Positions 10,856 to 50,500 of a stretch of 64,000 bases of DNA are shown here, one piece after another. The notes beneath the pieces are model-generated. The model saw only the letters and a program-made list of their open reading frames with translations, ran no database searches and was not told the origin of the DNA. The position numbers and the translations under genes are program-made. This stretch comes from Acholoe squamosa (taxonomy: Eukaryota > Annelida > Polychaeta > Phyllodocida > Polynoidae), in the NCBI GenBank assembly GCA_949317995.1, contig OX439042.1, positions 15,727,174 through 15,791,173 of the forward strand. Direction: 5' to 3'. Each line of letters opens with the position of its first letter. Position 1 is the stretch's first letter.

Positions 10856-13800
10856 ATGGCAGAGCAGGAGATGGAGGAGAAGGTACCCTGGGATGTAGAT
10901 ACTGTGTATAGGAAGATTAATGCTAAAGGGAGGTGGCAGATTGGTGTATACATGCTACATTGTGTTATGTATACAACATTGGCCTTCCATTACTTGGTGT
11001 TTGTCTTTCAAGGTAGGTTTCTTTTGTATTTATCTTTATCAATAGGCATCTCACTTTTTACCATATATATTGTAGATAAGATGTTATACCTGAGTGATAC
11101 AGTATATACAAACAAACTTTAATTCCTTTTGTGTGAGGTAACTTTTAGATGCAGTGCAATAATCAAACACTGTTAGTAAACTGTAGAGTAACTGACCACT
11201 TTGACTCCATCATATATTGCTGAAAATGGTTTGCTGTATTTTTGATCGGCCCAAAGGGGGTGTTTGAAGAAAAAGATTGTAAAAACGCTTAACAATTACA
11301 ACTCCAATTCCCCGTTCTGTCTTTCTCATACGCTGTTTTTTAACAGATTTCAAATCACAAAAATCTCATAATTCAAAGAAAGGAAACAATTCATTAACAA
11401 GCTACTGTTACAGTGGATACACCTTCCCACCACTGTAAGCTCCCAGAGAATGCTACAAAGAATGAGACGATCCCCCAGGTGTGGGAGGATGGGGCGTGGG
11501 TGGACGACAGGTGTCATGTCTACGTGAACCGCAGCATCAGTAACGCCACAGTGAAATGCACAGAGTGGCAGTTTGATCCAAACTCAGGATACATTTCTAC
11601 CATTGTCACTGATGTAAGTTTGATCCTAAGACAGGATACATTTCTACCATTGTCACTGATGTAAGTTTGATCCTAAATCAGGATACATTTCTACCATTGT
11701 CACTGATGTAAGTTTGATCCTAAATCAGGATACATTTCTACCATTGTCACTGATGTAAGTTTGATCTTAAAACAGGATACATTTCTACCATTGTCACTGA
11801 TGTAAGTTTGATGCTAAATCAGGATACATTTCTCCTCTTGTCACTGATGTAAGTTTGATCCTAAATCAGGATGCATTTCTACCATTGTCAGTGATGTAAG
11901 TTTGATCTTAAATCAGGATACATTTCTACCATTGTCACTGATGTAAGTTTGATCTTAAATCAGGATACATTTCTACCGTTGTCACTGATGTAAGTTTGAT
12001 CTTAAATCAGGATACATTTCTACCATTGTCAGTGATGTAAGTTTGATCTTAAATCAGGATACATTTCTCCTCTTGTCACTGATGTAAGTTTGATCCTAAA
12101 TCAGGATGCATTTCTACCATTGTCAGTGATGTAAGTTTGATGCTAAATCATGGATACATTTCTCCTCTTGTCACTGATGTAAGTTTGATCCTAAATCAGG
12201 ATGCATTTCTACCATTGTCAGTGATGTAAGTTTGATCCTAAATCAGGATACATTTCTACCATTGTCACTGATGTAAGTTTGATCTTAAGACAGGATACAT
12301 TTCTACCATTGTCAGTGATGTAAGTTTGATCCTAAGACAGGATACATTTCTACCATTGTCACTGATGTAAGTTTGATCCTAAATCAGGATGCATTTCTTC
12401 TTTTGTCACTGATGTAAGTTTGATACTAACACAGGATACATTTCTACTGATGTAAGTTTGATATGGAGTGATTTGTTCCCCACCAATTGGTTATGAAATA
12501 ATCCTAAAAGCTTGACATGCATAGTTTCATCTGAAATACGCTGCATACATTGACCTGATTGTACTTGTTATGCGTTAACGGGGAATACCAATAAACTGAA
12601 TTCCAACTGATCAATCCTGATCTAACATTTTCTTTTAAGAAGTCAAATATACTTCTGTAGGAACATTATTAGATGGGTTTCATGCCCTTTGTAGGATTGT
12701 ACCCAATACAAGGCACACAGGACCTTCTATTGGTTCTGACATCATGATACTCTGACTCTGATATCACGATACTGCTTAAGTTCCCTATGTGAATTACCTT
12801 CACCTTCCATCTACAGGTCACAGTTAAACAGAAGCAGATATGGAAAAATCATATCTATTATATAGGGAGCAGAGCCATTGCTAGTACCAAACAAATTAGC
12901 TAGGTGGCTCATGTAGTCGGGGGCTAGATTAGCAGTTGGCCTCTTTGTACAGTTTAATTTGGTTGGCCCTTCCTAATAGTCTATATAAAGCTATATTCTA
13001 AAAATATATACCTTTGGATAGCAAATACTTTAAACTTAAACAATATAAGCTTTGTTTAGACATAGTTCTTCAAAAACAGAAGAAAATAAACCTCAGAATT
13101 TTTCTAAGGGGGCACATATAATCCTAGCTGAGTAAAACCAAACCATTGTCTCCCTATCAGCCTAATCCCCTCCATTCACACCTAAAACAATGGACAGGTA
13201 CTTAAGGTGATTAAGATAGAGGCAGGGGCAGCTTATCAGTCTTATAAATTCCCATTGTTTTCTGTGGGTGGAGGGGAAGATAAGAGATTACCCACAATCC
13301 TCTGCCAGATCCAAGATGGCCGTCGGAGGTCAGTTACATGACTGATTTCAAGATGGCCACCTCCATAAAGGAATGGCTCTGTTCCCTATATGTTGATCCT
13401 TTAAAGCCCCCACGAGGCCTGTGGGATTTAGTCCTATCGTGATGTATCAATTGATCCAGTGTTGAGGATCTGCATTAGAGGATCATGCCAGCAGTGTATC
13501 GTTAGCATGATGCCGACATCAACCAGACAGAGTTGCCATGATGCAAGAATGCATGTCTGGGGATCAGAGCTCACTGGGTTGCAGCCATACATTACCATGA
13601 CAAATACAGTACATGAGAGGGTTAGGAGATATGTAAATATTGATAAGAGGCTAATTCATATATGGTGCTATCAATGCCTCTATATTGGCTCAGTGCTTCA
13701 GACTTGACTTTTGAACCACTCAGATTTTGGACATTGGTCGTCTGAGTAATGTAATTCTAATTGACCCGATGCTGGGGTCATTCTTTCATAATTCTGTATT

Positions 13801-16800
13801 TGGAATGATGGGCCGTACCTAGAAGTGATAATGTAAATGTCAACTGATGTATAGCATACACCTAGCATTTTTGTATGAGAAAGTATCTAGAGCCACTGAA
13901 TATTTAGAGAAAAAGCCCAAACAATTTGAATTTCGAGATGGCGGTATGTATGAATCATGTATATTAATGTTGACAGATGAAAAACAAGGGATGAAGGAAG
14001 ATTAAGTCAATCAGATGGATGAAGGAGTGATATGAAATATCAGTGCTTATTTCAATGATAATGGCTGATGATAGCCTCCTCGAAATTGTCAGGACATGTT
14101 TCGGTGATGGTAATAATGCTTGTTTTTATATGGTCTTTTCAGTTCGATCTGGTCTGTGGTAAGAACATTTTGGTGGAAATCTCAATTATGATTTCTAACC
14201 TGGTGCTGGCCGTATGTCAAGTGTTTGCCACCAAACTGGCTGATGTCTACGGCCGGAAGCCTGTCTTCCTGGCCGCTTGCGCACTAAGGATGCTGTTTGG
14301 GGTCGGCAAGGCCTTCGCACCCAACATGATCATTTACATGATCATGGACGCCCTTATTCACTTTGCTATGACGGTGAGGCGTTCATTTTTGAAATTATGT
14401 TTTGTTATACATTATGATAATTCTTTAAATATTTGTTTTGGTTAACAACAAGTATAGATGGGAAACTGAAAAAAATTCCATACCATATGGGTTGATATAA
14501 CTAGTGAAAAGACAATTGCTTAGATCATAAATAGCAATGTTTGATCCAGGATGTGATATTGTTCATCTCCTCTTTTTTTTTAAAAATCAATTTTGGTTGT
14601 GAATGTGCACATTGTCAGTTTGAAAAACTTCAAATCAATGTATTATCTCCATCTACAGTATAGCTATCTGGTATTGAATACAGCAGGGAAAACATTCTCA
14701 AATCTCCCGTAGTCCATATACATGTAAATAATTGCATGTGACACAAAGATATAATACTCCCTCAAAATATCATAGACACATCTTCATGTGAATGTGTATA
14801 ACCTTTCAGGGCTTTACGGCCACCCTACTGGTGATGTCCATGGAGCTGTTCCCCACTGAGTACCGCTCCATGGCAGGTACCTCCTTGGAGTTCTTCTGGT
14901 TCCTGGGCCTCATGTTCACGTCCCTGGTTGTCTACTGTTTCCGCAGCTGGAGGGTCCTCCAGCTGGTCATCTATGCACCTCTCATCATAGGTGTGGCCTA
15001 CTACTGGTGAATGAGTTAACCCCTTCAACCAGTAAAGACTCACGATGCATTAATGCATTATGCTCATTGATATCAGTGATCTTGATGGGCAGCTCTGAAA
15101 GGCATTTCTCAAGATGGTATGACTGAAAACAGCTACTACAATTTTATAACCCTCAAAATTAAAGTGGGTGATCGTAGGCAATGCACTCTGACTGCTCTGT
15201 ACGATCAGCATTTAACACAGTAATTACATAGGGTTTGGCAGGGTAGTTGTACTAGTGTAGTTATTAGTGACAACTTAGATGCAGGGCTATGATAGCATCA
15301 CAGTGAGTGATTCCACTACGATTTGACAGGGGTCTAGTCGTACCATCTTGAGAAATGCCTTCCAATTGAGGATGCCATCCATTCACCATGCTGACTCGAT
15401 GGACACACTCCCGGCAGGTTGATATGTACTAACGACGTTCTGGTGACCAGAATCGCTAGGTATAAATCCATGACGACCTATGGGTATTATACGTCAATGC
15501 AGTTAGGTTAAAGGTCATAGAATACTCTAGGGACTTATATGTCCATTTGATTCTGAGGATAAATGCATGGAGCCCTAATGTATACCCTGCCAGGATTTTA
15601 TATTCACAAAAAGAATATTATTGGAATACCCTATCTTCACTATATAGTCCACCTAAGCCATAGACCAGTGCTGTACTTGAAAATTATTTTTGTTCCATTT
15701 TAATCCTTGATAATGTGAATTATGTACGAGATGGAGGGCAATATTAAGACAATGTCTCTAATATAGTATCCTTTATTAAAATTAATTCTATTCACAGGCT
15801 TATAGACGAGTCAGTTCCCTGGCTGATGGCCCGGAAGCAGTATACTAAGGCTGAGAACATCATCAGAAGAGGGGCCAGGTTCAATAAAGTCCCTGTCACT
15901 GATGACCTATTCCAAGAGGCAAAGCCAATCACTAGTTCCTCTAACCATGAGACTAAGACTAAGCCAAGCATCAGTTTCCCGACCAGTGAGAAGGGGAATG
16001 ACATCTCAGGTAGCACAAACAGTGTCAAGAAGAGAACTGGGAATGGATTCTTTGGTAGTAACACCAGCCTCAGCAGTGTCACAGAAGCTTTAGGTATGTT
16101 AATTAAATTCTCATTTTCCTGTCTTTAGATTTTCTTTACAATGAAGGTATTAATAGGATTATAATGATATAATATTTGTAGCGTATTATAAGGTACATAA
16201 ATGTTCCTCACAGGGATTACATAGTACATAAGAATTTCTTTAGCTGTGTAAAGTAACTCTCAGTCCACACTTTAAAAATTAACCGTTGAATCTACCAGGG
16301 ATCCTTGTAAAACTGAACAGTGAACCACCATACTTATGTAGCAGGGAGCCAGTGTAGTATTAAGAGGAAGCCCCAGGTGGCAGTATGGTGGTACAAGGAA
16401 TCTCTGAAAATAACAACATCTCTGGGAAAGTAACAACAAATCTCTGGCTACTTTGGGACAAGGATTCCAGCATTATTTCGATGACAACTGTGTTCTTACA
16501 GTGCAGGCACAAGATAAAGATCTGAGTCTGAGGTTTTCAGTGCTATGGTATTCAAGAATAATTTGATCAACTCTGTGTCAATGTTATTTTTTCTTCTTCT
16601 CTCTGTACCTTCTCTACCAGGCAGAAGTGTGCATGGCAGTGGACCATTGTATATAAAAGTACAGAACGGTATAACTAACTACGTAGACAAGAAGGAAAAT
16701 AATGATGTCAAGTACGACGAGCAGGTGTCAGCTTTCAGTGTCTTCAAGTCAAGGAGAATGCTTGTCATTAGTATTATCAACTTCGTTTTATGGTAAGCCA

Positions 16801-19277
16801 ATCGAGAAATAAATTCTCTAAATGAATTCAAAATGTTTTTCTCATGGGGACGGACATATTTTCTAAACATGATGTCACCAACAATACACCATGATCTGTA
16901 TCCAATTCTATCAGCAGATTCCTAACATTGTCGTTCCAAGTGGCAAGAACATGAGACATTCCCTATCGTTATTTGAATGTTCATTTTAGCAGAATTCCAC
17001 AAACTTGGCCATACAGATATTCTGGCTACGTTAATCTGCAGAAATATTTCTAAAATATTTGGTCTTTTATTTGTGGTGGACATCAACTATGTTACTAGCA
17101 CTCTGATAAGTATACGAATTGAGATTCTAACACCATTTCCACTCCACAATGAACGATGCATTGACATTCTTACTTCTGCTTTCCCTATGATACCTATGAT
17201 GTGGATGGTCTTATTAGCTTGCAGTTTTTTTCACGTTCAGGTTCACCAATAGTGTAGTGTATACCGTTATCAATCTCACAGTCACTCACCTTGCTGGGGA
17301 CCGTTATCTCAACTTTCTCCTACTTAATTTAGCAGAACTCCCAGCCATTATTAGCTTCCACTGGGCACTTAATAGGTAAGGATTCTTCTAATAAGATGAC
17401 AATAATATCTTCATGATGACTACTTTGGTGGGCTTTATGTTGAATGGTAAGATTTTGACATTCATCAGCGGACAGACAACAGTCTTCCTAGATGGCATTT
17501 TAAATTTGATGCAGTCTATGGTATTTTAAACTATGGCACAGTACTAAATTTCAAATCTTATGTACCTTAGAGAATGGCGCCAAGTTGAGGGTGCGGCGCG
17601 CATATATGCACAACATATGTGCAGGGTCCCTCCTTAATGAGGGGACGATGGCTAAAATGAACTAGATTCATTTACATCGGTCCCTATACAGTTTTTACAT
17701 TTTAGATATGGTAGACGATGGCCAATATGCTTTTACCACGTTCTTTGTGGCATAGCCCTTTTGCTTACGCTAATTCAAGTTTTTGGTAAGTAACAAACAT
17801 AATTAGTACCTTTTTTACATATATAATTGCTAAAGCTCCACTAGTAGTTTTAGGAATGGAAATGTCACCATTGTAGGTGGTAGAAATGTGATAAATCTGT
17901 ACAAATCAACAAGCACATCTTTAGTCAGCCTTTTGTCATTATACGAAGAGAACCAAATGCAATAGAAAATGTCATTCAGTTAGAATTAACTGCATCATTA
18001 TGTATTTTATCATTGATCTCTGGCATTAATCTTTCAGGGGTGAATGCACCATGGCTTGGAATAACCCTTAATTTTGTAGGGAAATTTGCCATCACAGCAA
18101 GCTACTGTGCTATTCTAGTCTTTGCACCAGAGTTATATCCTACCAACGTCAGGTAATTGTGAACACAGTGCTTTCCTCATACTATTCTCCCCCATTCAAA
18201 GAGCCTCAGGGCCTCGCTATCTAACCTACTCATAAAGATCAAACTAGTATCTAAAGAACAAGTACCCTATACTTGGTAGCTAATTTAGTCGTTTTAGCCA
18301 TTACCCCGGTGACAAATTGTAACAGAATGCAGTTTACCACCAAATGGCCCAGAAGGGTCTACAGAATCAGCAAAAACAAGAAAGTCCTCACAAAATCGAG
18401 CAGTTTAACATTGTCAAATACACATAAATCCAAAATGGCCTCCAAATTACCAGATATCAATCTTTAATCATACAAATATTGTTGTTTTTTAATCTACCCC
18501 CCCCCCTAAATCTGACTCACATCAATGATTATATAGTATAAGTGAAATGCAGAGGTAAGGTAGAGAAAAAAGGTTATGGTTCAAAATAGTCAGGTGCCCT
18601 TTTAATAATGCCCCTAAATTGATTAGTGCAATGTGACTGTGTCATGTTCATCATGAATTGCAACTTGGCTTTTCAGGAGTATGTTCTTTGGTATGTGCTG
18701 GTTCTGGGCATACATTGCCCAACTTATAGCACCATATTGTAGACCTTTGGTAAGTTAAAAGTTGTTATCGTTATCCTATACTCAACAGCAGATCATGGCA
18801 ATTACACTGCATCCATCCAAAGTGCCGTGACATCTACTTTCACTTCAGTATGGAAATGTTAGGATTCAAATCATGAGCCTATTTCCAGCCTAAAGACAAA
18901 GTGTAGAAAATAATTAACCATATTATCATCAACGGTCCTCATTTCAATCACCATTAAACAAAAGGGGATGACCACATACTGAAAGGGGTTCAGTAATTTA
19001 ATGTCAGTTTTAACAACTGTTGCCAGAAACGTATGATCACTTCTCATAAATGTCATTGTTTCGTTCACAGGAGGTGCTTGTGCCTGGGTTGGTGCGTGGA
19101 TTTTGTGGCTGCTTATCTATAATAGTAGGGTTTCTGGTTCTGTTACTCCCTGAAACATTCATGAGACCATTCCCCAAAACTATAGCTGAAATAGAAAACT
19201 GGACAACTACTGTGTCAGAGGAGGAAAAGAGAAGATATAAGGAAAGGTCACAGACAGACTCATCTGAAGAAGCCTGA
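10856..19277 (+). CDS. SLC22-family organic cation/anion transporter, 11 exons, 620 aa
   Basis: Coding exons: 10856-11012, 11414-11613, 14143-14373, 14810-15006, 15798-16093, 16621-16792, 17241-17375, 17706-17785, 18038-18152, 18677-18749, 19071-19277; total 1863 nt, in phase throughout. This is a major-facilitator plasma-membrane carrier for organic ions. It has TM1 in exon 1, then a large extracellular loop with several N-glycosylation sites (ENATKNET, VNRSISNAT) and the typical TIVTDFDLVC end. The MFS signature KLADVYGRK is in exon 3. WLIDESVPWL follows TM6, with ELPAI in exon 7, LNRYGRR across exons 7/8, APELYPTNVR in exon 9 and LPETFMRPFP near the C terminus. The loop between TM6 and TM7 is unusually long (exons 5-6), making the protein longer than the usual ~550 aa. 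Substrate cannot be told from sequence. Intron 2 carries a donor-site minisatellite. Confidence 0.95.
11572..12463 (+). repeat. 47-bp minisatellite spanning the exon 2 splice donor
   Basis: About 19 units of 47 bp. The first unit is the last 42 bases of SLC22 exon 2 (from tttgatcc at 11572) plus the intron's GTAAG. Each later unit repeats the exon tail followed by a consensus donor (...gtcactgat|GTAAGT). The array therefore offers many near-identical competing 5' splice sites. 47 is not a multiple of 3, so use of a later donor would usually shift the frame. The copies vary by point changes (ccattg/cctcttg; atcc/atctt). Confidence 0.95.
15099..15361. repeat. Inverted repeat in SLC22 intron 4 (MITE-like)
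   Basis: Arms of 26 bp at 15099-15124 and 15336-15361 match at 25 positions (core ggcatttctcaagatggta), enclosing about 210 bases. Probably a small non-autonomous element; no target duplication identified. Confidence 0.6.
16266..16503. repeat. Dispersed MITE-like repeat in SLC22 intron 5
   Basis: Homologous over its length to 62660-62877. Shared blocks are cttgtaaaactgaacagtg, a block ending 'gaagccccaggtggca', and 'acaaggaatctc'. Both copies begin CACTGTAAAA-like and end in its inverse, and both lie in introns. Confidence 0.75.
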
Positions 19278-20015
19278 GGAAAGTACTTATAAATATCCAC
19301 CTGTTGGAGCAAAATATAGTATCTGCAATTCTAGGTACCATTAACAGATAAATAGCTGAATAGGACTGGGTAAAGGCCAAATCCCACTGCGCGAAAAAGA
19401 TCAGAATATGCTTGTGATTTAGACATTTGGTTTCCTTATTCAGTCGATAATGAATTGGTAATATCGTATAAGGAAGGCCTATAGAGACTAAGGATACATG
19501 CCGAAGGGCTGTTAAATCTGCGATGGAACACATCAAAAGTTTTTGATGTTTTTTTCAGAACAGACCAGACATCTCTGTCATACATCGGATATCCTTATGA
19601 TTTAGAGAAAAAGAAGGAGTTCTTGTGAATCAAACGAGGTGCGTGTTTCAGACACCGAGGATAGCAGCCATTTACTTTACCTTATAGAAGCAGCCCAAAA
19701 CCAGGGTGCACCTTATGAGTGGGATATAATACATGCTATCGAATAGAACTAGATTAGCCATGGTATTATTCAAAGTGCGTCTCTGGGGTCTGGCATGAAT
19801 TCAAGGTGGTATTTACGTCTATTTACAAGGTACAAAAATATGTAGGTTATATTCATAAGTGAAGTTAAATGAGCATTCCATGGACAAGTGGTATCCTATT
19901 TGGAAGGGTGCATAGATCACTATGATTATGGCTGTGGATGTCATGATTGAAAGAGTTAAAATGAGAACACATATGCATGGATTTGGGTTAACTTGGATAA
20001 AGACACTGCCAAAAA

Positions 20016-20021
20016 AATAAA
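20016..20021 (+). other. Candidate poly(A) signal of the SLC22 gene
   Basis: AATAAA about 740 bases after the stop codon. The 19278-20015 stretch between is presumed 3' UTR/flank, with nothing else recognised. Confidence 0.35.
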
Positions 20022-20070
20022 GAAAGTTGACTTTGAGTACTATCCCTTTTATTTATATCCACTTTGTACA

Positions 20071-20072
<2 letters not shown>

Positions 20073-20129
<57 letters not shown>
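20073..20129. repeat. (TA)n microsatellite, left flank of the YR element
   Basis: Uninterrupted AT dinucleotides up to the left end of the tyrosine-recombinase element. The same repeat resumes at its right end, so the element sits inside a TA tract. Confidence 0.95.
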
Positions 20130-20132
<3 letters not shown>

Positions 20133-20337
20133 AACTATATACACTCGTGTATATTTATATAATTAACCGCGAACGGTTAGGGACTATTTGCAGCGCGCAT
20201 TGGTATCTATGATGTCATAGCATGACGTCATGGTAAACACTCCTCCAGTATATAAGAGGAGTTTTCAATGTAACGGTCAATTGGCTCGATTCACCTGTAC
20301 AGGTAACACCACGCTGGGTGTTTCCTTGATTTTTAAA
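20130..20337 (+). repeat. A1 split direct repeat with promoter
   Basis: Starts tggaactatatacactcg, containing the inverted repeat atatacac-tc-gtgtatat that may be a recombinase site, and a second palindrome taaccg-cgaa-cggtta. A CRE-like palindrome (atgacgtcat at about 20222-20231) and TATATAA at about 20249-20255 mark the likely promoter. Confidence 0.9.
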
Positions 20338-20373
20338 GATTTCCTTGGTTGGAATTTGATTTTTCGAATCAAG

Positions 20374-21408
20374 ATGGGGAGGAAATCAACTAGAGTTGCC
20401 AAAGCGGCTACTACCTCTAAAAAATCGGCTAAATCGGCAAAGAAAACAGTAGAATCGGCCAATTCAGGATTTACGAGTGAGTTGGAATCGTCTTGTGTGG
20501 ATCAGAGGTCTGCATCGCCCAACCATGCTAACGGGTTAGAAGACGACCAATTCATTGACCAGACGGATAGGATGGACCTATTGGAAGGCGAGTTGTGCAC
20601 AATCAAGAATCTACTACAGGATTTGGTTGCTGGAAAGGACAGTAAAGACGAGACGAAATCTACCGAGGGGGCGTGGCAGCATGCACGTGCAAATGTTTGT
20701 CAACGGCCAGTGACGTCACATCACCAAGGACGCAGCCGCGTATCTAGGCAGCAGTCTCCGAGCGTCCTTAGTAACAGCACTAAGTGGGACGATGTGGAGC
20801 AGCGTGGTCGTCGCAGGAGGTCAAAGTCTTCTTTCTCCGCTCGTCACAGGCTTCGATCGTCTTCAAGAGGGTCGACAATAGATTCCTCTACATCCAAGCT
20901 TCACACCAATACCAAATGTGGTGAGTTTGATCATGAAGTTTATGTAAAAAAGAGGGAAAAGATCGACACAGTAGAAAAACTAGTACTTGTCAATTTAAAT
21001 TTTGTCCTGGACTATTACAAAGACAATGGTGATGTAGAAGGCATGTTAAAACATCTCCAATTTCTAGTAGAGAAAGCTGGGACCAAAATGTACACAGTAG
21101 CAGCCTTATTGGCTTACGACAGGTCGGTGAGATCCAGGGCTAATAAGGATGGTATAGAAGCTTTTGGGGTCATAGACAATTCTGACATTCTCAGGTACCT
21201 ATCTTATGATGGTACTGTTCAAGCACAGAAGGCATACGCCACCAAAACTAAGAATGGCACCAAACAAAAAATCTCAAATAATTCTTGCTATGCTTTTAAT
21301 AGAGCAGAAGGTTGTGTAAGGGACCCTTGCAGGTATAAACATGTTTGTAGTGGATGCAATTCCACTGGCCATGGTAAGACCGAGTGCCAAAAATCCAGGA
21401 ATGAATAG
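20374..21408 (+). CDS. Gag-like protein of the YR retrotransposon
   Basis: 344 aa from the ATG at 20374. The frame is open upstream to 20230 inside A1, but that has no better start. The N terminus is Lys/Ser/Thr-rich, the middle is Ser/Arg-rich, and the C terminus carries two zinc motifs: a CCCH finger (C-x8-C-x4-C-x3-H in CYAFNRAEGC...) and a zinc knuckle C-x2-C-x4-H-x4-C (CSGCNSTGHGKTEC). Presumed to package element RNA. It ends at TAG 21406-21408, after which the same frame stays open into the RT gene. Confidence 0.85.
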   Translation: MGRKSTRVAKAATTSKKSAKSAKKTVESANSGFTSELESSCVDQRSASPNHANGLEDDQFIDQTDRMDLLEGELCTIKNLLQDLVAGKDSKDETKSTEGAWQHARANVCQRPVTSHHQGRSRVSRQQSPSVLSNSTKWDDVEQRGRRRRSKSSFSARHRLRSSSRGSTIDSSTSKLHTNTKCGEFDHEVYVKKREKIDTVEKLVLVNLNFVLDYYKDNGDVEGMLKHLQFLVEKAGTKMYTVAALLAYDRSVRSRANKDGIEAFGVIDNSDILRYLSYDGTVQAQKAYATKTKNGTKQKISNNSCYAFNRAEGCVRDPCRYKHVCSGCNSTGHGKTECQKSRNE

Positions 21409-21468
21409 GAAACTGTAGGTGGTCGATGTCCCATAGCTGGTAATGATTTTCGTTTGGTGCCTGACCAA

Positions 21469-23415
21469 GTTATGGTAGGTGTGGTAGATGTCGACTCGCC
21501 TTCACAAACTCCAGTACAGGAGGTAAATCATACGGAGAGGGTTAAGGATTGTATTCTTTCAACTGAGTCCGTAGCAGAACAAAGTATTTTCCAAGAATTT
21601 AATTCGTTAGAAAATAATATAAATGTTACTTGTAATAGCCCAATACAGGTGGGTATTGAACCCCTTTTTACTGTCAGTGTCGCAGACCTGCCCAGCATCA
21701 GGGTATATGACGATTGTATTAAAGGTGTATGTACGTGTGTTCATTACATTGGTGGGGAGAGAGCTCAAATTTTACCATGTAGGGTAGCTTCTTTCCTTCA
21801 ACAAAATGGTCTCATTGATATTAGTGGTATAGAGGCTGATTTTCTATAGCATGGTATTGTTCAAGGGTTTAAAATTGTGGATCCGGACTGTCGTACTACT
21901 TATGATTGTAAAAATTATAAATCAATCCTGGAGGGAAGATTCTATAATGAATATTGTGGTATATTATTAGACGAGTTGGAGGCGGGTCTAGTCTCGAAGA
22001 GTGTCAGTAAACCTCGTTGTATCCATGCACTAGGTGGTGTAGAAAAATCAAATGGGAGTTTAAGACCCATAACTGACTGCAGTATGCCTGACAAAATATC
22101 TATTAACAACTTTATGGATACCACTACCTCAGCCTTTTCTTATAATAATATTAGCACGGTGACTGCTCAGTTGAATAAGAACGATTTCATGAGTGTGGTG
22201 GATTTAAAGTCAGCTTATAGGTCTATAAATGTGTATGCACCTCACACGACCATGCAGGGTTTCAGATGGGATTTTGGACATGGTGAGGATTATTATGTAA
22301 GCAACAGGTTAACTTTTGGCCTGAAATGTGCTCCATATATTTTTAATAAGATCTCTGATTTTATTGTGGAGGTGGCAAAATCCTACGGTGTAGAAAGGAT
22401 TGTAAATTATCTAAACGATTTTATAATTATTGCAAGTTCTTATGAAGACTGCCTCAGACAGAGAAATTTACTAACAGAATGTATGGAATATATGGGTTTT
22501 GTTATCTCCAGAGAAAAGGTAACCGATCCAACACAGGAGTGTAAATTTTTAGGTATTCTGATTAATTCTGTTGAACTGCAGTTATCTTTACCTGAGGATA
22601 AAGTGGAGAAAATGAGAGGAATTTTATCCAACAATGTGAATAAGAAGTATATCACCAAAAAGGTTCTTGAGAGGATTGGTGGTCTCATGTCGTTTTGTTC
22701 CCAGGTTGTAAAAGGTAGGAGGACGTTCAGTAGAAGAATTTTTGACTTGTGCGCCCGTGCTAGACCTAGGGGTTACATTAGGGTTTCAGAATGTACCAAA
22801 CGAGACATGCAGTGGTGGTTGGGTTTTTGTAATACTTTTAATGGTAAAAGTTTAATCCTGAACGTTATGGTTAATACATCTATGTACTCGGATTCGTCTA
22901 TTAAGGGCTTTGGAGCTTGGATGGGTAAAGATTTTCTATACGGAGACTGGACATCTGTTGATAAATTTAATCTTGGGGAAAATCATTTCACTGACCCTCC
23001 AATCCTTGACAATCTAAGAAACCATCATCGAAATATCAATGTATATGAATTGTACCCTGTTATGATGGGCTTGAAACGCTGGATTTCTAGTTATAAAAAC
23101 AAAAGAATACACTGTATAACAGATAATATGCAAGTTCTAACTATGATTAATACAGGCAGGTCAAAAAACAAACTTTGTATGGAATGGCTAAGAGAGATTT
23201 TTTGGCTGTGTTTCATTAACAATGTAGAAATATTCGCTACATATATTAAGTCAGAGGACAATATCCTGGCTGACCAGTTGTCGAGACTTGCATATAAAGG
23301 TATGCCTGGTAAATGTATAACTTCTCTCCATGAAAATGATATGTGTTGCTTTAATTCCAGAGTGGGAGAGGTTACTAAACAGAAAAAGGTTACTTTTAGC
23401 CCAGAGTGTGTCTGA
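21469..23415 (+). pseudogene. Reverse transcriptase/RNase H of the YR retrotransposon, with TAG and altered active site
   Basis: The RT-RNase H frame is interrupted by TAG at 21847-21849, and frame 21850-23415 continues the same protein. RT blocks visible are SLRPITDCS, VVDLKSAYRSI and LTFGLKCAPY. The catalytic box reads YLND (AAC at 22414-22416) where the family has YxDD, so one catalytic Asp is replaced by Asn. RNase H residues are present: Asp in YSDSS, Glu in VYELYP, Asp in ITDNMQ and Asp in ILADQLSR. It is in the same frame as gag and overlaps the recombinase gene by 86 nt. This copy is probably unable to make cDNA itself. Confidence 0.9.
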
Positions 23416-24283
23416 AAATACAAGGAGAACTAGGAATCAACAACTTAAAAGGTATAAGAAATTTTGTAAAAAATTTTGTTTACAAACTTTTCCTTGTTCT
23501 CCCTCTCAAAGTTCCATATATGCAGTTTACTTATCAGCTTTTATGAAGCCATCGTCTGTAAAAAATTATTTGTCTGCGGTTTGGTATTTTCAAAAAATTA
23601 AGGGCTATCCTGATTACAGTAGTAATTTCATGTTTAAGAAGACCCTTGATGGCATTGACAGGCTTTCTACCTGTTCAACCAGAGTTATTCACTATTATTC
23701 TCCTAAAGACATGTTGAGGTTAAGGTCATTCTTGGATCTAACCAACATGGCAGACTTTAAATTTTGGATGGCAATTTTAACATGCTATAGGGGTGTGTTA
23801 CGAGTGGGACATGTGGTTGAGTCTCCACATTCCTTAAAGGTTGGTGATATTAAATTTCATCGAGATTATTTGTCTATGTGTATCAGAACATCCAAGACAG
23901 ATCAGCTTGGTAAAAGTTCTTTTAATATCTATTTATCAAAAAATGTTAATTCCCCACTATGTCCTTATCTAGGTCTGGAAAAGTTGTGCTGTGGTAGGAG
24001 TAGCAGAGAGTATCTGTTTAAGTCTAAGGGTAATCCTCTTCAGTACCAGTATGTCAACTCCAGGTTAAAGTTTTTATCTTTGCAAGCTGGTATCGAGGGC
24101 TGTGTCTCCACCCACTCTTTGAGGCATGGTGGGGCTACTTTGTTAAAAGAGGCTGGACTCAGTATAGAGTCTATCAAAAAGAGAGTCAATTGGAAATCCA
24201 ACTCAGTTTTTAATTATTTACATAACTACAAAGATGAACTATTGGAGTTGGATAGAGTGTGTCAATCTCATTTGCAATGCTGA
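23330..24283 (+). CDS. Tyrosine recombinase of the YR retrotransposon
   Basis: 317 aa, shifted frame relative to RT, overlapping its end. It has the residues expected of a phage-integrase-type enzyme: Arg in GVLRVGH, a Lys in SKTDQLGK, the H-x-x-R box in THSLRHGG, a Trp in RVNWKS and the nucleophile Tyr in VFNYLHNY. It would integrate a circular double-stranded DNA copy without the target-site duplication left by DDE integrases. The frame is intact. The start codon choice (ATG 23330) is not decisive, since the true start could be slightly downstream. Confidence 0.93.
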   Translation: MKMICVALIPEWERLLNRKRLLLAQSVSENTRRTRNQQLKRYKKFCKKFCLQTFPCSPSQSSIYAVYLSAFMKPSSVKNYLSAVWYFQKIKGYPDYSSNFMFKKTLDGIDRLSTCSTRVIHYYSPKDMLRLRSFLDLTNMADFKFWMAILTCYRGVLRVGHVVESPHSLKVGDIKFHRDYLSMCIRTSKTDQLGKSSFNIYLSKNVNSPLCPYLGLEKLCCGRSSREYLFKSKGNPLQYQYVNSRLKFLSLQAGIEGCVSTHSLRHGGATLLKEAGLSIESIKKRVNWKSNSVFNYLHNYKDELLELDRVCQSHLQC

Positions 24284-24329
24284 TTGATATGTGTTTTCAC
24301 ATGTGTTTGGCGTGTTTTTATGTGTTTTT

Positions 24330-24510
24330 GGCATGTATGGTGCTGATAGCCCCAAGGTCAGTAACCCACCAAACTCATGTGTTTCTGTGATAGATCATTT
24401 ATTATTTGTATATTATATTAATACCTTTTATTACCGGTACACCCTAGTATTTATTGTCATCTTATCCATTTATTACCGGTATTATTATTCCCTGGTAGCG
24501 AGTTAACTTA
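24330..24510 (+). repeat. B1 split direct repeat
   Basis: 181 bp starting ggcatgtatggtgctgatag, directly abutting A2. It matches B2 with one difference noticed (tattt versus tatta). Confidence 0.93.
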
Positions 24511-28585: not shown

Positions 28586-29783
28586 CTAACCACCGATCAT
28601 ACTAAATGTAGTTTCTTTAACTTGTTCCATAAGGCCCTATATGAATGACAGTACAGTAAAACACTGTGTTACCTAGAATCTCGGAAAACAACCCTGCAAT
28701 CCTTGTCCAAAAGCTGCAGGGATCCGCCGTTAGTTTGATATTTTTTTACACTGTATCTCATAAACAATTTGTAGCATGAGGACCATTTGTGGTCTAAAGA
28801 CTGTCTTTTATGTAACAAGAGACATAACCCCCCTGCAGGTATAGAGATCTAAAAAAAAATTGGAACAGGAGTTTTCGGCATTCCCCCCACGAGTGCACAT
28901 TGTTTCCCCCTATTCTCTTTTCGATTCTGTTAATGGAAGGGCGGGGGGGGGGCAAATGTATCATTGCCAACAAAAAAGATGTAGTTATAAGGTGGGGTAA
29001 AGAAATTCTGCCTTGGCTATGATACTGGGTTTTGCCTTGACTATGATACAGGGGTGGGCAAATCTTGAAATCCTGGAGCCAATACAGCAGCAGTTGTAGC
29101 CATGGTGCGGAGAAGCCTTGGTATGACAGATGATATTGGTGTGAACCCAGTATTTTGAGAAAGGGAGTGGGGCAGACTTTGGTCAGAAGATGTAGTTGAA
29201 TGGGTTGATGGACCCCTGCTAAGGAAAATGCGATAAAATTATGTGGTCAGTGAGGCAAACATGGTAGGGGGTCTGGGCATACCCCCGAGGAAAATTTTGC
29301 TTTCTAGAGGTAATTTGGTGCATTTTTAGACCTCAAATTCAGAGGCTACTGTAGTCTAATTTACTACAAAATTCAGAAATTGAGACTGTGAGTAAGGCTG
29401 GGGGTGGAGGATTGGTGGGTCAGGGGTGAGGCCAGGAGAAGAGAAGCAGTGGAAAATGGTAGGGTAGAAGGTGTGGGCAGTAGGAGACAGCAATAGGGGA
29501 AGAGTGGGACTGGGAGTTAGGGGAGAAAGAGAAAGGCAGTAGGGTACTGGTAGGGCTGGTGCAAAGGTAGGAGGAGAGAGGCAGAAAATGAATAGTGAGA
29601 CTGGGGGTGAGCGCAGAAGGAGAATGGCAGTAAGGAAATGGTAGGACTGGGTGAGAACAGGACAAAAATGGATATGGAGGAATGGTGGGTTGGATGCCAG
29701 GGCAAGATGAGATTGAGGATGGATCTAGGGGCAAGGACCATCACTGCCAGTCTTACCCAGGTCCCAACATGAGGTCACATTTC

Positions 29784-35262: not shown

Positions 35263-35267
35263 CCCTA

Positions 35268-37124: not shown

Positions 37125-37400
37125 TTTGACTTCGTCTTTCCCCCCAAAAATTGGTATGGTGAATCTGTTTTTGTTGTTGGTGTGTTGCTATGGCCCATGG
37201 TTAACTAGCAACAACCATTCATATAGGTAATTTGCCTAGCAGTCGGTATAAATGTGGCCTCTAACACATTCCAAAAACACCTATCCCCCCTAAATGGGAT
37301 ATCCATTTGAACTATTCGTTTGTTGCTATGGCCACAGGTTGCCTAGCAGCAGCCATTCTTATTGGTTATTTGCATAGCAACAAGTTATGTTATTGTTACA
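37125..37400. repeat. Diverged ~138-bp tandem duplication
   Basis: gttgctatggcc ... taggtaatttgc (from about 37183) recurs as gttgctatggcc ... ttggttatttgc (from about 37322), with similar C-rich sequence upstream of each. Two copies, well diverged. Confidence 0.6.
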
Positions 37401-38590: not shown

Positions 38591-39050
38591 GGACCTGTAC
38601 CACTGTGTTTACAAACACTTTTCATAGTGAATCCAACCATGACAAGTCGAGATATTAAAAGGTACACATCCTTAGATAGTCTAGATGATTCCTCCATACT
38701 TATTATGTCCAATATATTCAAAATAAAGAAGAATCCATTGATTTTTCCATCGTAACGAGTCGCAGTCCGACATTCTCAGCGTCTTTTTTAACTGCGGCGT
38801 GTTGACCTACATTCACATGCGGGCCACTGACACACTTTCATCTAGCAAGGAGCCTGGTGGGAATGGATTGACTGTGACTTGCTTACGATGGAAAATCATT
38901 GGATTCTTCTTTATTTGAATATATTAGACATAACAAGCATGGAGGGATCATATAGACTGTCTAAGGATGTGTACGTTTTAATATGGAGACTTGTCATGGT
39001 TGGATTCCATACGAAAAGTGTGTGTAAACACAGGACTACCGCTACAGGTA
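38591..39050. repeat. Long inverted repeat, arms ~180 bp
   Basis: 38591-38771 and 38865-39050 are about 85-90% reverse complements by eye (for example cattgatttttccatcgtaa against ttacgatggaaaatcattgg), separated by about 95 bases. A transcript would fold into one long hairpin. Probably a foldback/MITE element. Confidence 0.85.
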
Positions 39051-39093
39051 AGAATTTATTTGTTTTTGCATTGGGTTTCATCACCGTTCAGTG

Positions 39094-39160
39094 TGGCGCT
39101 ATGGCTAAGGCGTCTGCCTACTTCCACTGTGGCCGGGGTTCAATTCTGTTGAGACAGTTT
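39094..39160 (+). mobile_element. tRNA-derived SINE head
   Basis: Has a pol III A-box-like tggctaaggcg (about 39102) and B-box-like ggggttcaattct (about 39136) at tRNA-like spacing, but no fold or CCA side matching an intact tRNA. The tail end was not delimited. Confidence 0.55.
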
Positions 39161-41579: not shown

Positions 41580-41588
41580 AGAACCAAC

Positions 41589-44500
41589 ATGGAGCGTTCC
41601 AAGGGGTGTTGTGGGAGGGCGTGTGAGAAGGCATTCCCCTCAGGCTACAAGGAGGAGTTTGTAGGCACTATGAAGATAGCATGGGCCATTGTAAGTATTG
41701 CTATAAGAGGCCATTGTAAGTATTGCTATAACAGGCCATTGTAAGTATTGCTATAATGGGCCATTGTAAGTATTGCTATAATGGGCCATTGAAAGTATTG
41801 CTATAATGGGCCATTGTAAGTATTGCTATAATGGGCCATTGTAAGTGTTGCTAGCCATTGTAAGTAATGCTATAACAGGCCATTGTAAGTATTGCTATAA
41901 CAGGCCATTGTAAGTATTGCTATAATGGGCCATTGTAAGTATTGCTATAATGGGCCATTGTAAGTACTGCTATATGCTCCCTGATGTTATGGTTTTAGTC
42001 TTGCTGCTTCTCTCTATCACGACGTACCTAGCGTTTGTGAATTGGTGCCAAATAATTTGAAAAAAAAAAACCAACATGTTGCATAACCAACGTGGCCGGA
42101 AGGGCTATGAGAAGTCACATATAGTTCCATTGTCTTTAGCACAGTAGGCCCCCATAAATGATGTATGACGTTACTCTATATTATCTCTATGCCCAATTAA
42201 AACAAAATGAGTACCGTCTGTCTACATAAAACCGTTATCGGTGTGTATAATGCATTATGACTTGCACTTTCATTTCCTTTCCCCGTGTACCAATGCAGTC
42301 ACAGGGATTAACTGGCCGGTTCTACATGTGTGTATCTTTCAAATCATTCAGGAGAGGCTCGTGCATCATGGCATCCTAACATCATGATGCATTATCTGTT
42401 ATATGCATCATAATATTCTTGATGCATTATCTGTTATATGCATCATAATATTCTTTGTGGATTAGCCATTGTAATTTCAATATCAGAAATATGTAGATCT
42501 GCATGGCAGGAGTTTCGATGCTCGATCTTCTGTACCATTAAACATTATGATGGTGTAAAAGGCAAGAGAGGCAAAATAAGTGTTGTAATATATAGTTGAC
42601 CAAACCTATTGCATTCATGCCTATAGACACATATATCATTAAGTTCTTTCATAGATGGTGGATAAGGGTCAATAGATGTTAAAACAGAAGAAAACTCAAT
42701 ATTGTCAAAATGTCAGTTAAAATCCTCGTTGAACTGAGGCGACGAAATGTACAACTATTGGTATGATTCAAGATTGACATTATGTGACGACCTTGGGTCA
42801 AAAAGGTTATGAGTAATTTTGTCGTTGTGATGAACAATAACAACAAGTGTGACGACTTTTCATTTCCCATAGGCTAGGTTTTAGTACATACATATGTCAC
42901 GCGCCAAGTAGGAATAGGGACGATTCCTTAATTGCCCCTGCCCAATTTTGCGCAATTTTGGAACTGCCCCCCTCTTAGGTTGTCCAGTTCAGGAATATTT
43001 AAAAAAAGAGGCAAATATTACAAAGGCCTACATCTTAGAAATAGAAACCATTTTCTTTGGAAAATATATTCTTTGGCTGTCCAAAGTCTATATAGTAAAG
43101 ATTGCATCATGATAGCTTTAAAAATTCACTACAGCAGAACACAACAAACATGGGTATATGCTCAAATTCTGGAATGGATTTGTTGCGTTTTGGAATCAAA
43201 CTCTTCATTTGAATTAAACACGCATTATGACATTGCGCAGAGCATGCCCTACAGAGAGGCCAGCTTGATGGAAAAACGGGTAAGTGAGTTTTGAAGATTC
43301 ACAGGTAAACTGTACCTGCACAGGGGCTAACTGTATAACAGCCGGAGGTGTTATTCTCACAGCTTTATTGACACCTACAGTTAGTTGTATGGTGCATTGG
43401 ACTGATCCTGTAACAGCCACTACACATTGGGCCTAGTTCAGGGTGTGGTAAACAGACAAAAAAAGACCATGATTTTCAAGTATGTCTTAAAATGAACTTG
43501 TTTCATGAGAATAATTGTCCCTCCTAAAGCATTCCGAAACTGCGCAAATTACCACATTGCGCTTAACATATATACATGGTGTATGTACATTTCCCCCCTT
43601 TTCATCGACACTGTAGGATTGGCGGAGTTGCATGAATGAACCTGCGCAGCCCTAACAAAATATAATTTACAAATTAACGTTCCCCATGTATTCCTCCAGG
43701 TGTTGACGCAGGTAGCTGAGATGTACTTCCAGCCTATAGCCGTCATGTTTGGCGGCCACCTCGGGAAGCTGGAACTGGACGCCATAGCCTTGTCAAATAC
43801 AGTAAGAATATTATAAGAAAGACAGAACAAAAAAAGAATCAGCCTCATAGAGACGAATAGTACGCATGAATGTAGTGCAAAGTTGTACTGAAAGATATGC
43901 CAGCATATAGCATACCGAAATGGGTCGTTAAAGTGCCGGGGTCTCAAATGAGTGCCGGCTGTGGTGCCTTTATCTCACAAAATTGTCCATTCTGTCAGGT
44001 TACATGATCTCGTTAGCCAAAGATGAGAAGGTTGGTAAATAAATAATGCCATAATACATCAAATACACATGATAATATAGAGGTGAAAAAAATGGACGTA
44101 CTTGTAGTTAGGATGGTACATGTGATCCTTTACCCCTCAAAATGGTACATGTACTGTTTTGAGGGATAAAGCCAATTTTGTGAGATAAAGGCACCACGCC
44201 GGCCTCAAATAATCGCCGGGTAGAGGGAAATTGAAAACAATCTCAAGCAATAGCATGCAGATTAGGGCCGAGGTACAGAGGTACTAAAATTGTTAAGCCA
44301 TTACACGCCATTTCAGTGACGACACAGATTAGTTGTAGGAACAGAATGCAGCCCTGGAGGAGCTATGGTGGGAATCAGAGTTGAGCCCTCCATAGACAAA
44401 TTGAAGCCCACATAATATTTCCTAAATGCCAAGTATTTACAATATATTGTGAGCAGATTACAGAATTTAACGGATTGTATTGAAATATGCCTTTGCTTAC

Positions 44501-47500
44501 AACCATACATTCCTCCATTCGCTTTCAGCTTATCAACGTCTTGGGTTATTCTATCATTATAGGGATGGCTACGTGTTGTGAAACGGTGTTTTCACAGGTA
44601 AGTAGCTACAAATAAATCTACATTAGGCCATAACAGGTGTGTTTCAGAATATCCCATCCTACCTAGCAAAACAGGACAGATTCTAGAATCCTTCTTCCAT
44701 CTTAAAAGAAAACAAGAAAAATGTGGCAAGGACCACGGCACTGATAGGAGTTGCCACTCTGCAGCCGACGTGTGACGTCACGGCCGACGTTTGACATAAA
44801 AAATTACGTCACAAGGTGGCCGTGATGTCACTGACAAACCGAAAACATAATGAAGTTGCTACGGTCGTTGCCCTCCTGGCCGCTATGCGGCAAGCAACTC
44901 CAAAAAACGTATATTAGGCATGATTCTTTTTGAGTAGATTTCAATGTATAGTCATCCGAGTGTCTCAGCCCTGCCTCGTGTCCGACCTACTTTAGATTTT
45001 TTGGTCTTTCAATCTGAAATACACCTCTTTCTTTCTTGAAGGTTACTTGTGATAAGGTGGCCCTCTACATTAAAGTGCCTATATCTCATGCATGTGACTC
45101 AAAGTTTGGGATGCACGCTTGCTCTTCTAGAGGGTATTTGTATAAGTATACCTAGATTTGTAGAAGTATACCTAGCATTACCTTGCAATTGCATGATGTT
45201 CATTAAGCTATGTATTTTGGGTCGTTTCCCATCTTATGATAATTATTATTTGTTTTATTAGTGCTTCGGCTTTGGACATCACAAAATGATCGGGATATAT
45301 CTCCAGAGAAGTAAGTCAAATAAAAATAGTGAACCATAATGACCATTCCCTTCATGTGACACAAACCAAAAAGTCTTTCTTTTTAATTTAATACATCACG
45401 CTTTACACGAAATTATGATTTCATTCAAGAGAAAATGGATACAATATTGGATATTCGCAACTAGGGGAGACGTTTTTGAATGACTTCGATTCAAGGCCAA
45501 ATCATTTATGACAGAAATAAAACATATGCAATTAATTATTATAATTGCTGTATATCAGCCCTCATCATGGCCGTGGTTATGTGTGCTGTTCTCTTTTTAC
45601 AACACCCAGGTATCTACATCCATCTGCTCGCTCTGTTTCCGTGCTTTGCCATTCACCTAAACCTGGAACCTATATTAAAGGCCATAGGACAAGATCCAGA
45701 AGTATCAAAGTAAATAGGAACAAGTGATCATTGTTATAAAGAGTAATATTGGCTATAGTGGTGTTATTCTTCCCTAGAATTCACAATATTATGGCATTTA
45801 GATATCATTATGATCTACGTGAGAAGCCATGGCATATGTTGTGTGTGTTTTTTTTCATAAAAAAATATCATATGTGTTCTTATAACATAACATTTAAAAG
45901 TATCATATAATTTCATGTGCACCTATAAAATGTGTTCCCTGTGTTTTTATATGCTTCATGTTTTGCTTACCTGCTGCTTCTATTTTTCTCAGGCTAACTG
46001 CAACTTATTTGGTCTATTTTATGCCGGGCATGGTTGTAAGTATACATTCTTTTTACAAACATTTTCTTCTCTACAAGTATGTACAAGTGTTGTTCAATGG
46101 TTGCAAATTCAAAGCTGACTTAAAACAGTACAAGATGTTATGAAGTATTTGAAATTATAGATCATCCAAGAAAATCATGGGGTTCATGGCCAATCCCCTA
46201 GTAGATCTCCTCTATACATTTTAATACAATGTAAATGGGACGCACTAGAACAGGGTTGATTGATTTATGTTTTATTGGCAACAAAATAGCTCAATACAGT
46301 GAGTTCTTCAATAATTACCACCCCAAATATATAACTTTGTGTGTGTATATGTGTGTGTGTGTGTATGTATGTGTGGTAGCGTGTATGTATCAACATTTTC
46401 TACACAGTGTCCTTACATTCTGACTTTAAAAGCATTCGAAGAAAAACCTCCTTTGTATCAGCATGTTGGGTCTCCGCTGGTTACTGAATATGTGTTAGGG
46501 TTAATAATGTTACCATTACCATCTATTTAACTTTACCTGTATTACCCTTTTTTTGCAGTGCCTGTGCCTGACCATCATCCTCCGTCGGTACACCCAGTGT
46601 CAGAGTATCGTAATTCCTCACATCTTTATATTGGGAGCAGCTCACGCTGTACATGCTGTGTGTCAGTACCTGCTACTGTACCAATTCAGCATGGGTATCA
46701 TGTAGGTATCATGATAACATGAGTATCATGTAGGTATCATGATAACATGAGTATCATGTAGGTATCATGATAACATGAGTATCATGTAGGTATCATTATA
46801 ACATGAGTATCATGTAGGTATCATGATAATATTGGTATCATGTAGGTATCATTATAACATGAGTATCATGTAGGTATCATGATAATATGGGTATCATGTA
46901 GGTATCATTATAACATGAGTATCATGTAGGTATCATGATAACATGAGTATCATGTAGGTATCATAACATGGGCAACATGAAGGTATCATTGTAACATGCG
47001 TATTACATAGGTATCAATATAACATGGGTATCATGAGGGTATCATTGTAACTTGGGTATCATGTAGGTATCATGATAACATGGGTATCATGTAGGTATCA
47101 TGATAACATGAGTATCATGTAGGTATCATGATAACATGAGTATCATGTAGGTATCATGATAATATGAGTATCATGTAGGTATCATTATAACATGAGTATC
47201 ATGTAGGTATCATGATAATATGAGTATCATGTAGGTATCATTATAACATGGGTATCATGAGGGTATCATTATAACATGAGTATCATGTAGGTATCATGAT
47301 AATATGGGTATCATGTAGGTATCATGATAACATGGGTATCATGTAGGTATCATGATAACATGGGTATCATGTAGGTGTCATGATAACATGAGTATCATGT
47401 AGGTATCATGATAACATGGGTATCATGTAGGTATCATGATAACATGAGTATCATGTAGGTATCATTATAACATGGGTATCATGTAGGTATCATGATAACA

Positions 47501-50500
47501 TGGGTATAAATCATGTAGGTATCATAATAACATGGGTAGCATGTATGTATTATGATAACATGAGTATCATGTAGGTATCATAACATGGGCAACATGAAAG
47601 TATCATTGTAACATGCGTATTACATAGGTATCAATATAACATGGGTATCATGAGGGTATCATTGTAACTTGGGTATCATGTAGGTATCATGATAACATGG
47701 GTATCATGTAGGTATCATGATAACATGGGTATCATGTAGGTATCATGATAACATGGATATCATGTAGGTATCATTATAACATGAGTATCATTTAGGTATC
47801 ATTATAACATGGGTATCATGTAGGTATCATTATAACATGGGTATCATGTACTATAATTATAACATGAGTATCATGTAGGTATCATGATAACATGGGTAGC
47901 ATGTATGTACTATGATAACATGAGTATCATGTAGGTATCATGATAACATAAGTATAAATCATGTAGGTATCATGATAACATGAGTATCATGTAGGTATCA
48001 TGACCACATGGGTATCATGTAGGTATCATAACTTGGGCAACATGAAGGTATCATTGTAACATGCGTATTACATAGGTATCAATATAACATGGGTATCATG
48101 AGGGTATCATTGTAACTTGGGTATCATGTAGGTATCATGATAACATGGGTATCATGTAGGTATCATGATAACATGGGTATCATGTAGGTATCATGATAAC
48201 ATGGGTATCATGTAGGTATCATGATAATATGAGTATCATGTAGGTATCATTATAACATGGGTATCATGAGGGTATCATTATAACATGAGTATCATGTAGG
48301 TATCATGATAATATGAGTATCATGTAGGTATCATGATAACATGGGTATCATGTAGGTATCATGATAACATGGGTATCATGTAGGTATCATGATAACATGG
48401 GTATCATGTAGGTATCATGATAACATGGGTATCATGTAGGTGTCATGATAACATGAGTATCATGTAGGTATCATGATAACATGGGTATCATGTAGGTATC
48501 ATGATAACATGAGTATCATGTAGGTATCATTATAACATGGGTATCATGTAGGTATCATGATAACATGGGTATAAATCATGTAGGTATCATAATAACATGG
48601 GTAGCATGTATGTATTATGATAACATGAGTATCATGTAGGTATCATAACATGGGCAACATGAAAGTATCATTGTAACATGCGTATTACATAGGTATCAAT
48701 ATAACATGGGTATCATGAGGGTATCATTGTAACTTGGGTATCATGTAGGTATCATGATAACATGGGTATCGTGTAGGTATCATGATAACATGGGTATCAT
48801 GTAGGTATCATGATAACATGGGTATCATATAGGTATCATGATAACATGGGTATCATGTAGGTATCATTATAACATGGGTATCATGTAGGTATCATTATAA
48901 CATGAGTATCTTGTAGTTATCATGATAACATGGGTATCATGTAGGTATCATTATAACATGAGTATCTTGTAGTTATCATGATAACATGGGTAGAATGTGA
49001 GTACCATTAACATTTGTGTCATGTTAGCAAATCAGTGAGATTTTCCTCAAAGGGACAAAGGAGTAGATCATCGCATCACTGATATTGGTTGCGGAATCTT
49101 CAGTTTATTATCAATTATACTTCCAAAAAGGGGTCAAAGGCTGCAGGAACACTTTCTCCCAAATGTTGCCCATCCCTTCTGAGTGATACACGTCAACACT
49201 CGATCTATATAGGGTCCCCTGCTACCGAGAAAATAGTTTAAGAGCAATAGCTGAATCAGGTGACACACATGTATACGTATGCATCTATATATTAGAATGG
49301 CAAATGCATTAGGTGCTATTACATATTTAAACTTTTTTTCTTGTACTTGTAATACAGAGGATCTGCTATAGCCCAGGACATCACGTTCTTCTTTATTTTG
49401 GTGGTGACGTGTATCTACACTCACTTCTCCCAGGTGCACAAAGAGAGCTGGGGAGGTAGGTGGCTCTGCGTTTAAATAAAGGCACTTGTTATAAGTGAAA
49501 CTCACAATATCCACGGAGCTTAAGTAGATGTTCCACCAGCATCTGATGTAGCAATTGGGAACAACAGTTACTAAAAGATCAGTCACCGGATGCTATCCGA
49601 TGAAATTTAAGAATTTTTATTTCATCAGATATGTTCAGTAGATATGTTTTTCTTTCAGAGTTAAGCAGACCCACCTGTATGTGTGATGTACAGCCTACCT
49701 CCCGGGCCTCCCTAGCCCACTTAAAAGGGTCTATATCTCCTCTTTCTATCCCCTCGGATGTATGTGGTGCACATATGCGCGGGCACCGATACATTCCTCT
49801 GTGAAATTGTGTAATGTATTCTCGCCATGAATATGACCTTAGCTGTCGAAATGGCATTAAACATCTATTACTCACTCACAGCCTACCTCCCTGCCTACAT
49901 CCATCCTTAGGTCTTGGGAACACCTATGTTATATTTCCCCCATCATTTTTATTCTATGACATGTATCTGCTTGTGCCTAGGGTGGGACTGGAGAGGACTA
50001 CATGACTGGGGTCCCCTGGCCAAGCTGGCCGTCTATGGAATGCTCATGGTGGGTTTTGAGTGGTGGGCCTTTGAGATATCAATCATAATCTCAGGTGAGT
50101 TGGGATCTTTTAATCTACAATAATCATAAGATTATGATAATATATGAATTAAACAAATGAGGAGAGACACATTCCCAGTAGACCTACCTAGCAAAAGCTT
50201 CTTTGAAGGGTAATTCTGGGGAAGCCTTTTGTGCCCTACAGATGGCACAGCTATGTTCACTTTCATCATGATTTACCAGTATTCTATAGCCTTTTGAATT
50301 AGTTCCATTTTGCCAGGTTCGGATGGTTGTGTGAATGGAACAAAAATCTATTTTCAGATCCCTTTCACTTGAACTTGGTTAAACGAATATCATAATATGG
50401 CATTGATTATAACATTGAACTGATCAAGCTGTTATTTCCTGAGTACCTACTTGTTTGTCATGTTGTAGATATTCTAAATATGATCATATCCGTCTATATT

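Follow-up and report, generated by a model that had tools for sequence, protein, structure and literature searches.

Three long minisatellites, each built on a 5' splice site, were found in two transporter genes of the polynoid annelid Acholoe squamosa. They lie in a window of 64,000 nucleotides (the whole stretch of DNA analysed here, positions 15,727,174 to 15,791,173 of contig OX439042.1, assembly GCA_949317995.1), array 1 in intron 2 of an SLC22-type gene and arrays 2 and 3 in coding introns 1 and 7 of a MATE/SLC47-type gene. We regard the arrays as further cases of the already named class of 'mirage' minisatellites. They were probably seeded at donors, would lie silent in the intron and drift passively, and would owe their position to duplication or growth being more frequent at donors. 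New here are a measure of the donor excess within the window and evidence against the copies being strongly selected decoys.

Structure of the arrays

The arrays were located with Tandem Repeats Finder (TRF) over the whole window, and their units were then read individually. For the gene models, open exons were linked through GT-AG splice sites. The two models contain 25 introns, all of them GT-AG, and in both the open reading frame (ORF) is intact from ATG to stop. The SLC22-type protein carries the Pfam domains Sugar_tr and MFS_1, and its best solved relative is SLC22 member 3 (7zh0, E 2.5e-45). The MATE-type protein carries the Pfam domain MatE and has MATE1 as its best solved relative (9r10, E 9.4e-88, residues 18-463 aligned). 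A preliminary description of this DNA had placed the arrays in these three introns, with unrelated units, and had each of them begin in the last exonic bases. The TRF calls and the spliced models show the locations to be right, the arrays do begin in the exon, 44, 10 and 12 bases upstream of the donor for arrays 1, 2 and 3 respectively, and by eye the units are unrelated.

TRF called array 1 at 11570-12447 (47 bp x 18.7) and gave a copy number of 12.0 for array 2. The unit of array 1 consists of 44 bases from the end of SLC22 exon 2 plus the start of the donor, that of array 2 of 10 exonic and 15 intronic bases, and that of array 3 of 12 exonic and 16 intronic bases; in all three arrays the repeat unit crosses the exon-intron boundary. 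Array 3 makes up most of the 2,656-bp MATE intron 7. The exact donor hexamer GTAAGT is present 19 times in array 1, ie in all full units, and in 11 of the 12 units of array 2, while GTAGGT is present in 60 of the 83 units of array 3. Many units, though not all, repeat the splice signal. The earlier statement that every unit repeats the exon end and the donor holds for the full units of array 1 and is too strong for the other two arrays.

The donor probably used

Protein alignments run without a gap across all three first junctions (marked here by a slash). STIVTD/FDLVC of the SLC22-type protein pairs with STIVSEFDLVC of 7zh0, in a printed alignment that begins only seven residues upstream; KIAWAI/VLTQ at the end of MATE exon 1 pairs with MATE1; and FSMGI/IGSAIA at the end of MATE exon 7 pairs with LGVIGSALA of MATE1. 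This supports the first, exon-proximal donor of each array as the one fitting the protein family, and we infer that it is also the one used in the living animal. In the published mirages regular splicing seems to be left undisturbed; the same may hold here, homology supporting the first donor. The choice would probably be made by exon definition, as the first donor and the acceptor ahead of it enclose an exon of ordinary length (200, 102 or 111, and 143 bases; the two values for MATE exon 1 are its coding bases and the length counted from an acceptor-like site at 41580).

In each array the three exact donor copies that follow the first (nine tested) all give a frameshift or a stop. None of the unit lengths of 47, 25 and 28 bp is divisible by three; a shift by three full units puts the reading back in frame, but stop codons then interrupt it. 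These results bear on the proposal that the arrays serve alternative splicing, or are a stage in intron gain, with later donors or unit-internal AG sites used to give variant exons. In a passage of PMC3087553 mirages are suggested to give rise to new introns, and human IFI6 is described in a passage of PMC4526556 as using downstream repeat units as donors. The IFI6 variants encode isoforms, however, whereas the next three donors in each array here shift the frame or introduce a stop codon, and we consider such a role very unlikely.

The idea that later donors are hidden by RNA structure was set aside. The first donor is only slightly more open, by approximately one standard deviation or less (mean unpaired probability 0.39, 0.31 and 0.35 for the first donor of arrays 1, 2 and 3, versus 0.33, 0.24 and 0.31 for the other donors, array 3 being covered only to 47650). 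The arrays are natural tests of how the splicing machinery chooses one donor among 11 to 60 identical ones.

Placement relative to chance

Eight minisatellite loci (unit of at least 12 bp, overlapping TRF rows merged) lie in the two gene spans. Three span a donor, none spans any of the 25 acceptors, and five are inside introns. The donor-spanning arrays are the three with at least 12 copies, and the five others have 2.0-2.6 copies. A 35-bp unit at 42371-42455, in the interior of MATE intron 1 and off any junction, is repeated 2.5 times; other TRF rows that overlap this locus give it 3.1-3.4 copies, with a match of 64-68%, which would make the count three of four. The earlier observation that three of three coding-gene minisatellites sit on donors is therefore correct for arrays with a clear unit and at least three copies, and has to be qualified by the five low-copy arrays in intron interiors and by that possible fourth member. 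Outside both genes there are arrays of approximately three copies at 29507-29651 and 60023-60083, plus some shorter ones; the first of these has a G-rich 46-bp unit in about three diverged copies.

In the chance test an array was allowed to reach at most one unit into the exon at either end and the arrays were treated as independent; all the figures are post hoc and come from two genes only. With the length of the arrays themselves removed, the chance of covering one of the 25 donors is 0.064, 0.036 and 0.040 for the three arrays, with a product of 9e-5; the product is 5e-5 when array length is kept in. When all gene arrays are counted, P for at least three of eight is 0.0022, and P for at least three of 11 is 0.0037 after inclusion of three weaker rows of lower score (one within MATE exon 9; 2- and 4-base units excluded). 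The earlier judgement that three donor arrays are unlikely by chance is upheld inside the window. In an ungapped direct-repeat scan over the junctions (offsets 8-200) the array donors scored 426, 127 and 196, and the top scores elsewhere were 10 among the 22 other donors and 7 among the 25 acceptors. Relic arrays showed no excess over intron positions at the 22 plain donors (P 0.37) or at the 25 acceptors (P 0.74).

Acceptor-side copies would more often be misread than donor-side copies. Splicing at the first donor would make donor-side copies silent, so that arrays at donors are tolerated and those at acceptors are rarer. Chance acting together with such tolerance could account for the arrays if these can arise anywhere, if exonic and acceptor ones are then purged, and if the three at donors here are a coincidence. 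The sample is small and was noticed afterwards, P is only 0.002-0.004 with all gene arrays, and the published mirages include an acceptor case, BflGb6, in the text seen of PMC3087553. However, mostly interior arrays would then be predicted, whereas the 15,676 intronic bases outside the arrays contain no high-copy array and the 25 donors have three. We see chance plus tolerance as possible, though distinctly short of probable. Since intron interiors are equally harmless and roomier, yet are without high-copy arrays, tolerance alone is insufficient. A bias towards array formation at donors would be a likelier cause, and the simplest addition to tolerance. The preliminary description had offered two explanations, nucleation of repeats at donors and selection tolerating only donor-preserving repeats. 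The first is possible; the second is weakened by the empty intron interiors and by the donor hexamer not being specially kept, as described below.

Evolution of the copies

In arrays 2 and 3 the exon copy matches the intronic consensus exactly, and in array 1 two bases differ; the exon is the conserved source of the copies. The columns of array 1 that vary between intronic copies number 4, 4 and 3 at codon positions 1, 2 and 3, an even spread that fits non-coding drift. Ranked for lack of change among all six-column windows of the unit, the donor hexamer was 13th of 47, 8th of 25 and 12th of 28 in arrays 1, 2 and 3. Selection on the donor copies is unsupported, as other stretches of the unit are equally well kept. 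The raw change rate in the donor columns was 0.000 versus 0.060 in the rest of the unit for array 1, 0.014 versus 0.075 for array 2 and 0.063 versus 0.074 for array 3, and given this lower rate in all three arrays weak selection may still act. The donor hexamers are preserved no better than the remainder of the unit, so the copies resemble passive intron, not strongly selected decoys.

This has consequences for a functional explanation, in which the rows of donors would be maintained as a platform for the U1 small nuclear ribonucleoprotein (U1 snRNP), defining the exon or shielding a long intron from premature polyadenylation. Of the 25 introns, those with arrays are the three longest, partly owing to the arrays themselves. 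All three array donors (at 11613, 41690 and 46701) have T at position -1, as against one of the 22 others, the donor of MATE exon 6 at 46035, which has no array (Fisher 0.0017, post hoc). Against such a platform, the hexamer is kept no better than other windows of the unit and is missing from 23 of the 83 units of array 3. Nor are the array donors weak overall, with 8, 8 and 9 of 11 consensus matches compared to an average of about 7.5 for the other 22. A platform function is, on balance, unlikely. The related idea of weak donors was discarded, the array donors not being below the others in consensus matches.

Array 3 contains an exact repeat of 402 bases at an offset of 1,065 bases, with further exact runs at 448 and 617 bp, and TRF reports a 144-bp period in array 2. 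The block repeats of array 3 suggest recent multi-unit growth or assembly duplication, and the block duplications suggest array turnover, as seen in one assembly. Arrays that were inflated or misassembled could also show long exact repeats such as that of 402 bp, and an aberrantly assembled mirage in a draft genome is reported in a passage of PMC3087553. However, the units vary, with 13, 7 and 31 types in arrays 1, 2 and 3, and three independent arrays join their genes at the correct junctions; an artefact is extremely unlikely.

In array 1 the eight bases AGTTTGAT are present at the left end, within the exon, and again after the last unit, as expected of a duplication begun between two short direct repeats. 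No matching founder repeat was found at the flanks of array 2, and array 3 ends, on the right, in degenerate sequence.

Proposed origin

We suggest that each array began as a short tandem duplication of the last bases of an exon together with the start of the intron behind it, and then expanded by repeated slippage or unequal exchange. Splicing would pick the exon-proximal donor and leave the later copies harmless in the intron, where, as in other minisatellites, they would diverge and multiply block by block and would not be kept as spare splice sites. The arrays would lie where they do, and not inside introns, because duplication or growth is more frequent at donors. Whether a selected exon copy might prolong the life of its array, as a held seed, was considered by reasoning only and set aside, as it protects one copy and predicts no excess at donors.

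A more specific proposal, put forward tentatively, is that in this lineage a 5' splice site in active use is a hot spot where tandem repeats arise or expand, one possible cause being polymerase pausing or U1-linked RNA-DNA hybrids at the donor. A hot-spot process tied to splicing could possibly favour T before GT, three of the four such donors having arrays and none of the 21 others.

Four points weigh against the proposed origin as a whole. The donor excess amounts to three arrays in two genes, and its test came after the pattern was seen. Splicing is deduced from homology. The founder microhomology (8 bp, AGTTTGAT) was found in array 1 only, and with the founder repeat clear in that array alone a single shared founding signature is not supported. 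Finally, no young two-copy stage was detected at the 22 other donors by the ungapped scan over offsets 8-200, and a strong nucleation bias might have left some.

Three long donor arrays among the 25 introns of two genes would mean, if typical, that splice junctions shape where repeats form. If the hot-spot proposal is true, minisatellites at donors are signs of a mutational process linked to splicing.

Other features of the window

The coordinates of the two genes, of the exons with arrays and of the arrays themselves are given in Table 1. Several other coding stretches were noted. Adjoining ORFs at 21850-24283 have reverse transcriptase and tyrosine-recombinase (Phage_integrase) domains and are preceded by a long ORF at 20221-21408; from the domain order we take this element to be DIRS-like. 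A reverse transcriptase ORF of the window gave 284 protein-search matches. Among the matches listed for that ORF (120), for the MATE-type protein (102) and for the SLC22-type protein (34), none of those with a name is from a lancelet, near relatives possibly having been left out. Two overlapping ORFs at 6991-8888 each hold one half of a reverse transcriptase domain and represent a frame-broken retroelement copy. Two adjoining long ORFs (624 and 366 amino acids) at 2014-4989 had no Pfam match at E 0.01. The Rfam search gave no match, and array 3 had no match among phage sequences in a search from which near records were possibly left out.

Table 1. Positions in the window of the transporter genes, the exons bearing arrays, and the arrays. 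A slash marks the exon-intron junction; aa, amino acids.
Feature	Position	Strand	Description
SLC22-type transporter gene	10856..19277	+	11 coding exons, 620 aa; in-frame splicing
SLC22 exon 2	11414..11613	+	200 bases; first donor GAT/GTAAGT, 11613/11614, phase 0
Array 1	11570..12462	+	47-bp unit, 19 copies (last = 38 bp) + partial copy; SLC22 intron 2
MATE/SLC47-type transporter gene	41589..55785	+	16 coding exons, 551 aa; in-frame splicing
MATE coding exon 1	41589..41690	+	first donor ATT/GTAAGT, 41690/41691, phase 0
Array 2	41681..41974	+	25-bp unit, 12 copies (one = 19 bp); MATE coding intron 1
MATE exon 7	46559..46701	+	143 bases; first donor CAT/GTAGGT, 46701/46702, phase 2
Array 3	46690..48992	+	28-bp unit, ~83 copies (TRF 82.3); MATE intron 7

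Comparison with known systems

The Adh mirage of amphioxus is reportedly described at first hand in a paper by Canestro of 2002. The class, first described in amphioxus and pointed to by the preliminary description, does exist in print. According to the passages seen of PMC3087553 and PMC3902484, amphioxus mirages are present in Adh3, in the globins BflGb6 (acceptor side) and BflGb9 (end of exon 2), in PGBD5 and in troponin C. In the same passages splicing is seemingly undisturbed, the Adh3 mirage is somatically unstable, and the mechanism of origin is called unclear. A genome-wide count of arrays at donors was not found in the open-access literature, as far as its texts were available and with most subscription papers outside it, and the passages seen of a study of earthworm intron minisatellites (PMC12783039) describe no donor-spanning repeat.

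Two models from other systems are related in part. In the tandem-duplication model of intron gain, as outlined in a passage of PMC4974935, an exon segment bearing AGGT is duplicated into a new intron. The arrays share with it a tandem duplication at splice signals that converts exon copies to intron. In contrast to that model, in which the duplicated AG/GT supplies both new sites, each array here sits within one intron and lengthens an existing intron at its donor, and the junctions are GAT/GT, ATT/GT and CAT/GT, not AG/GT. In human IFI6 (6-16/G1P3) downstream minisatellite units serve as donors and give protein isoforms (a passage of PMC4526556, citing Turri 1995; the passages in PMC2572611, PMC2915984 and PMC3618361 that also cite Turri 1995 have no bearing on the arrays here). 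As in IFI6, a minisatellite supplies multiple splice donors; unlike in IFI6, the next three donors in each array give a frameshift or a stop, and those downstream units are not usable as coding donors.

The closest likeness is therefore to the amphioxus mirages, as far as the published passages describe them, and two differences are apparent. All three arrays described here are on donors, in two transporter genes, whereas amphioxus BflGb6 repeats its acceptor, and array 3, with approximately 83 copies, is far above the 2-7 copies of the amphioxus globin and PGBD5 mirages.

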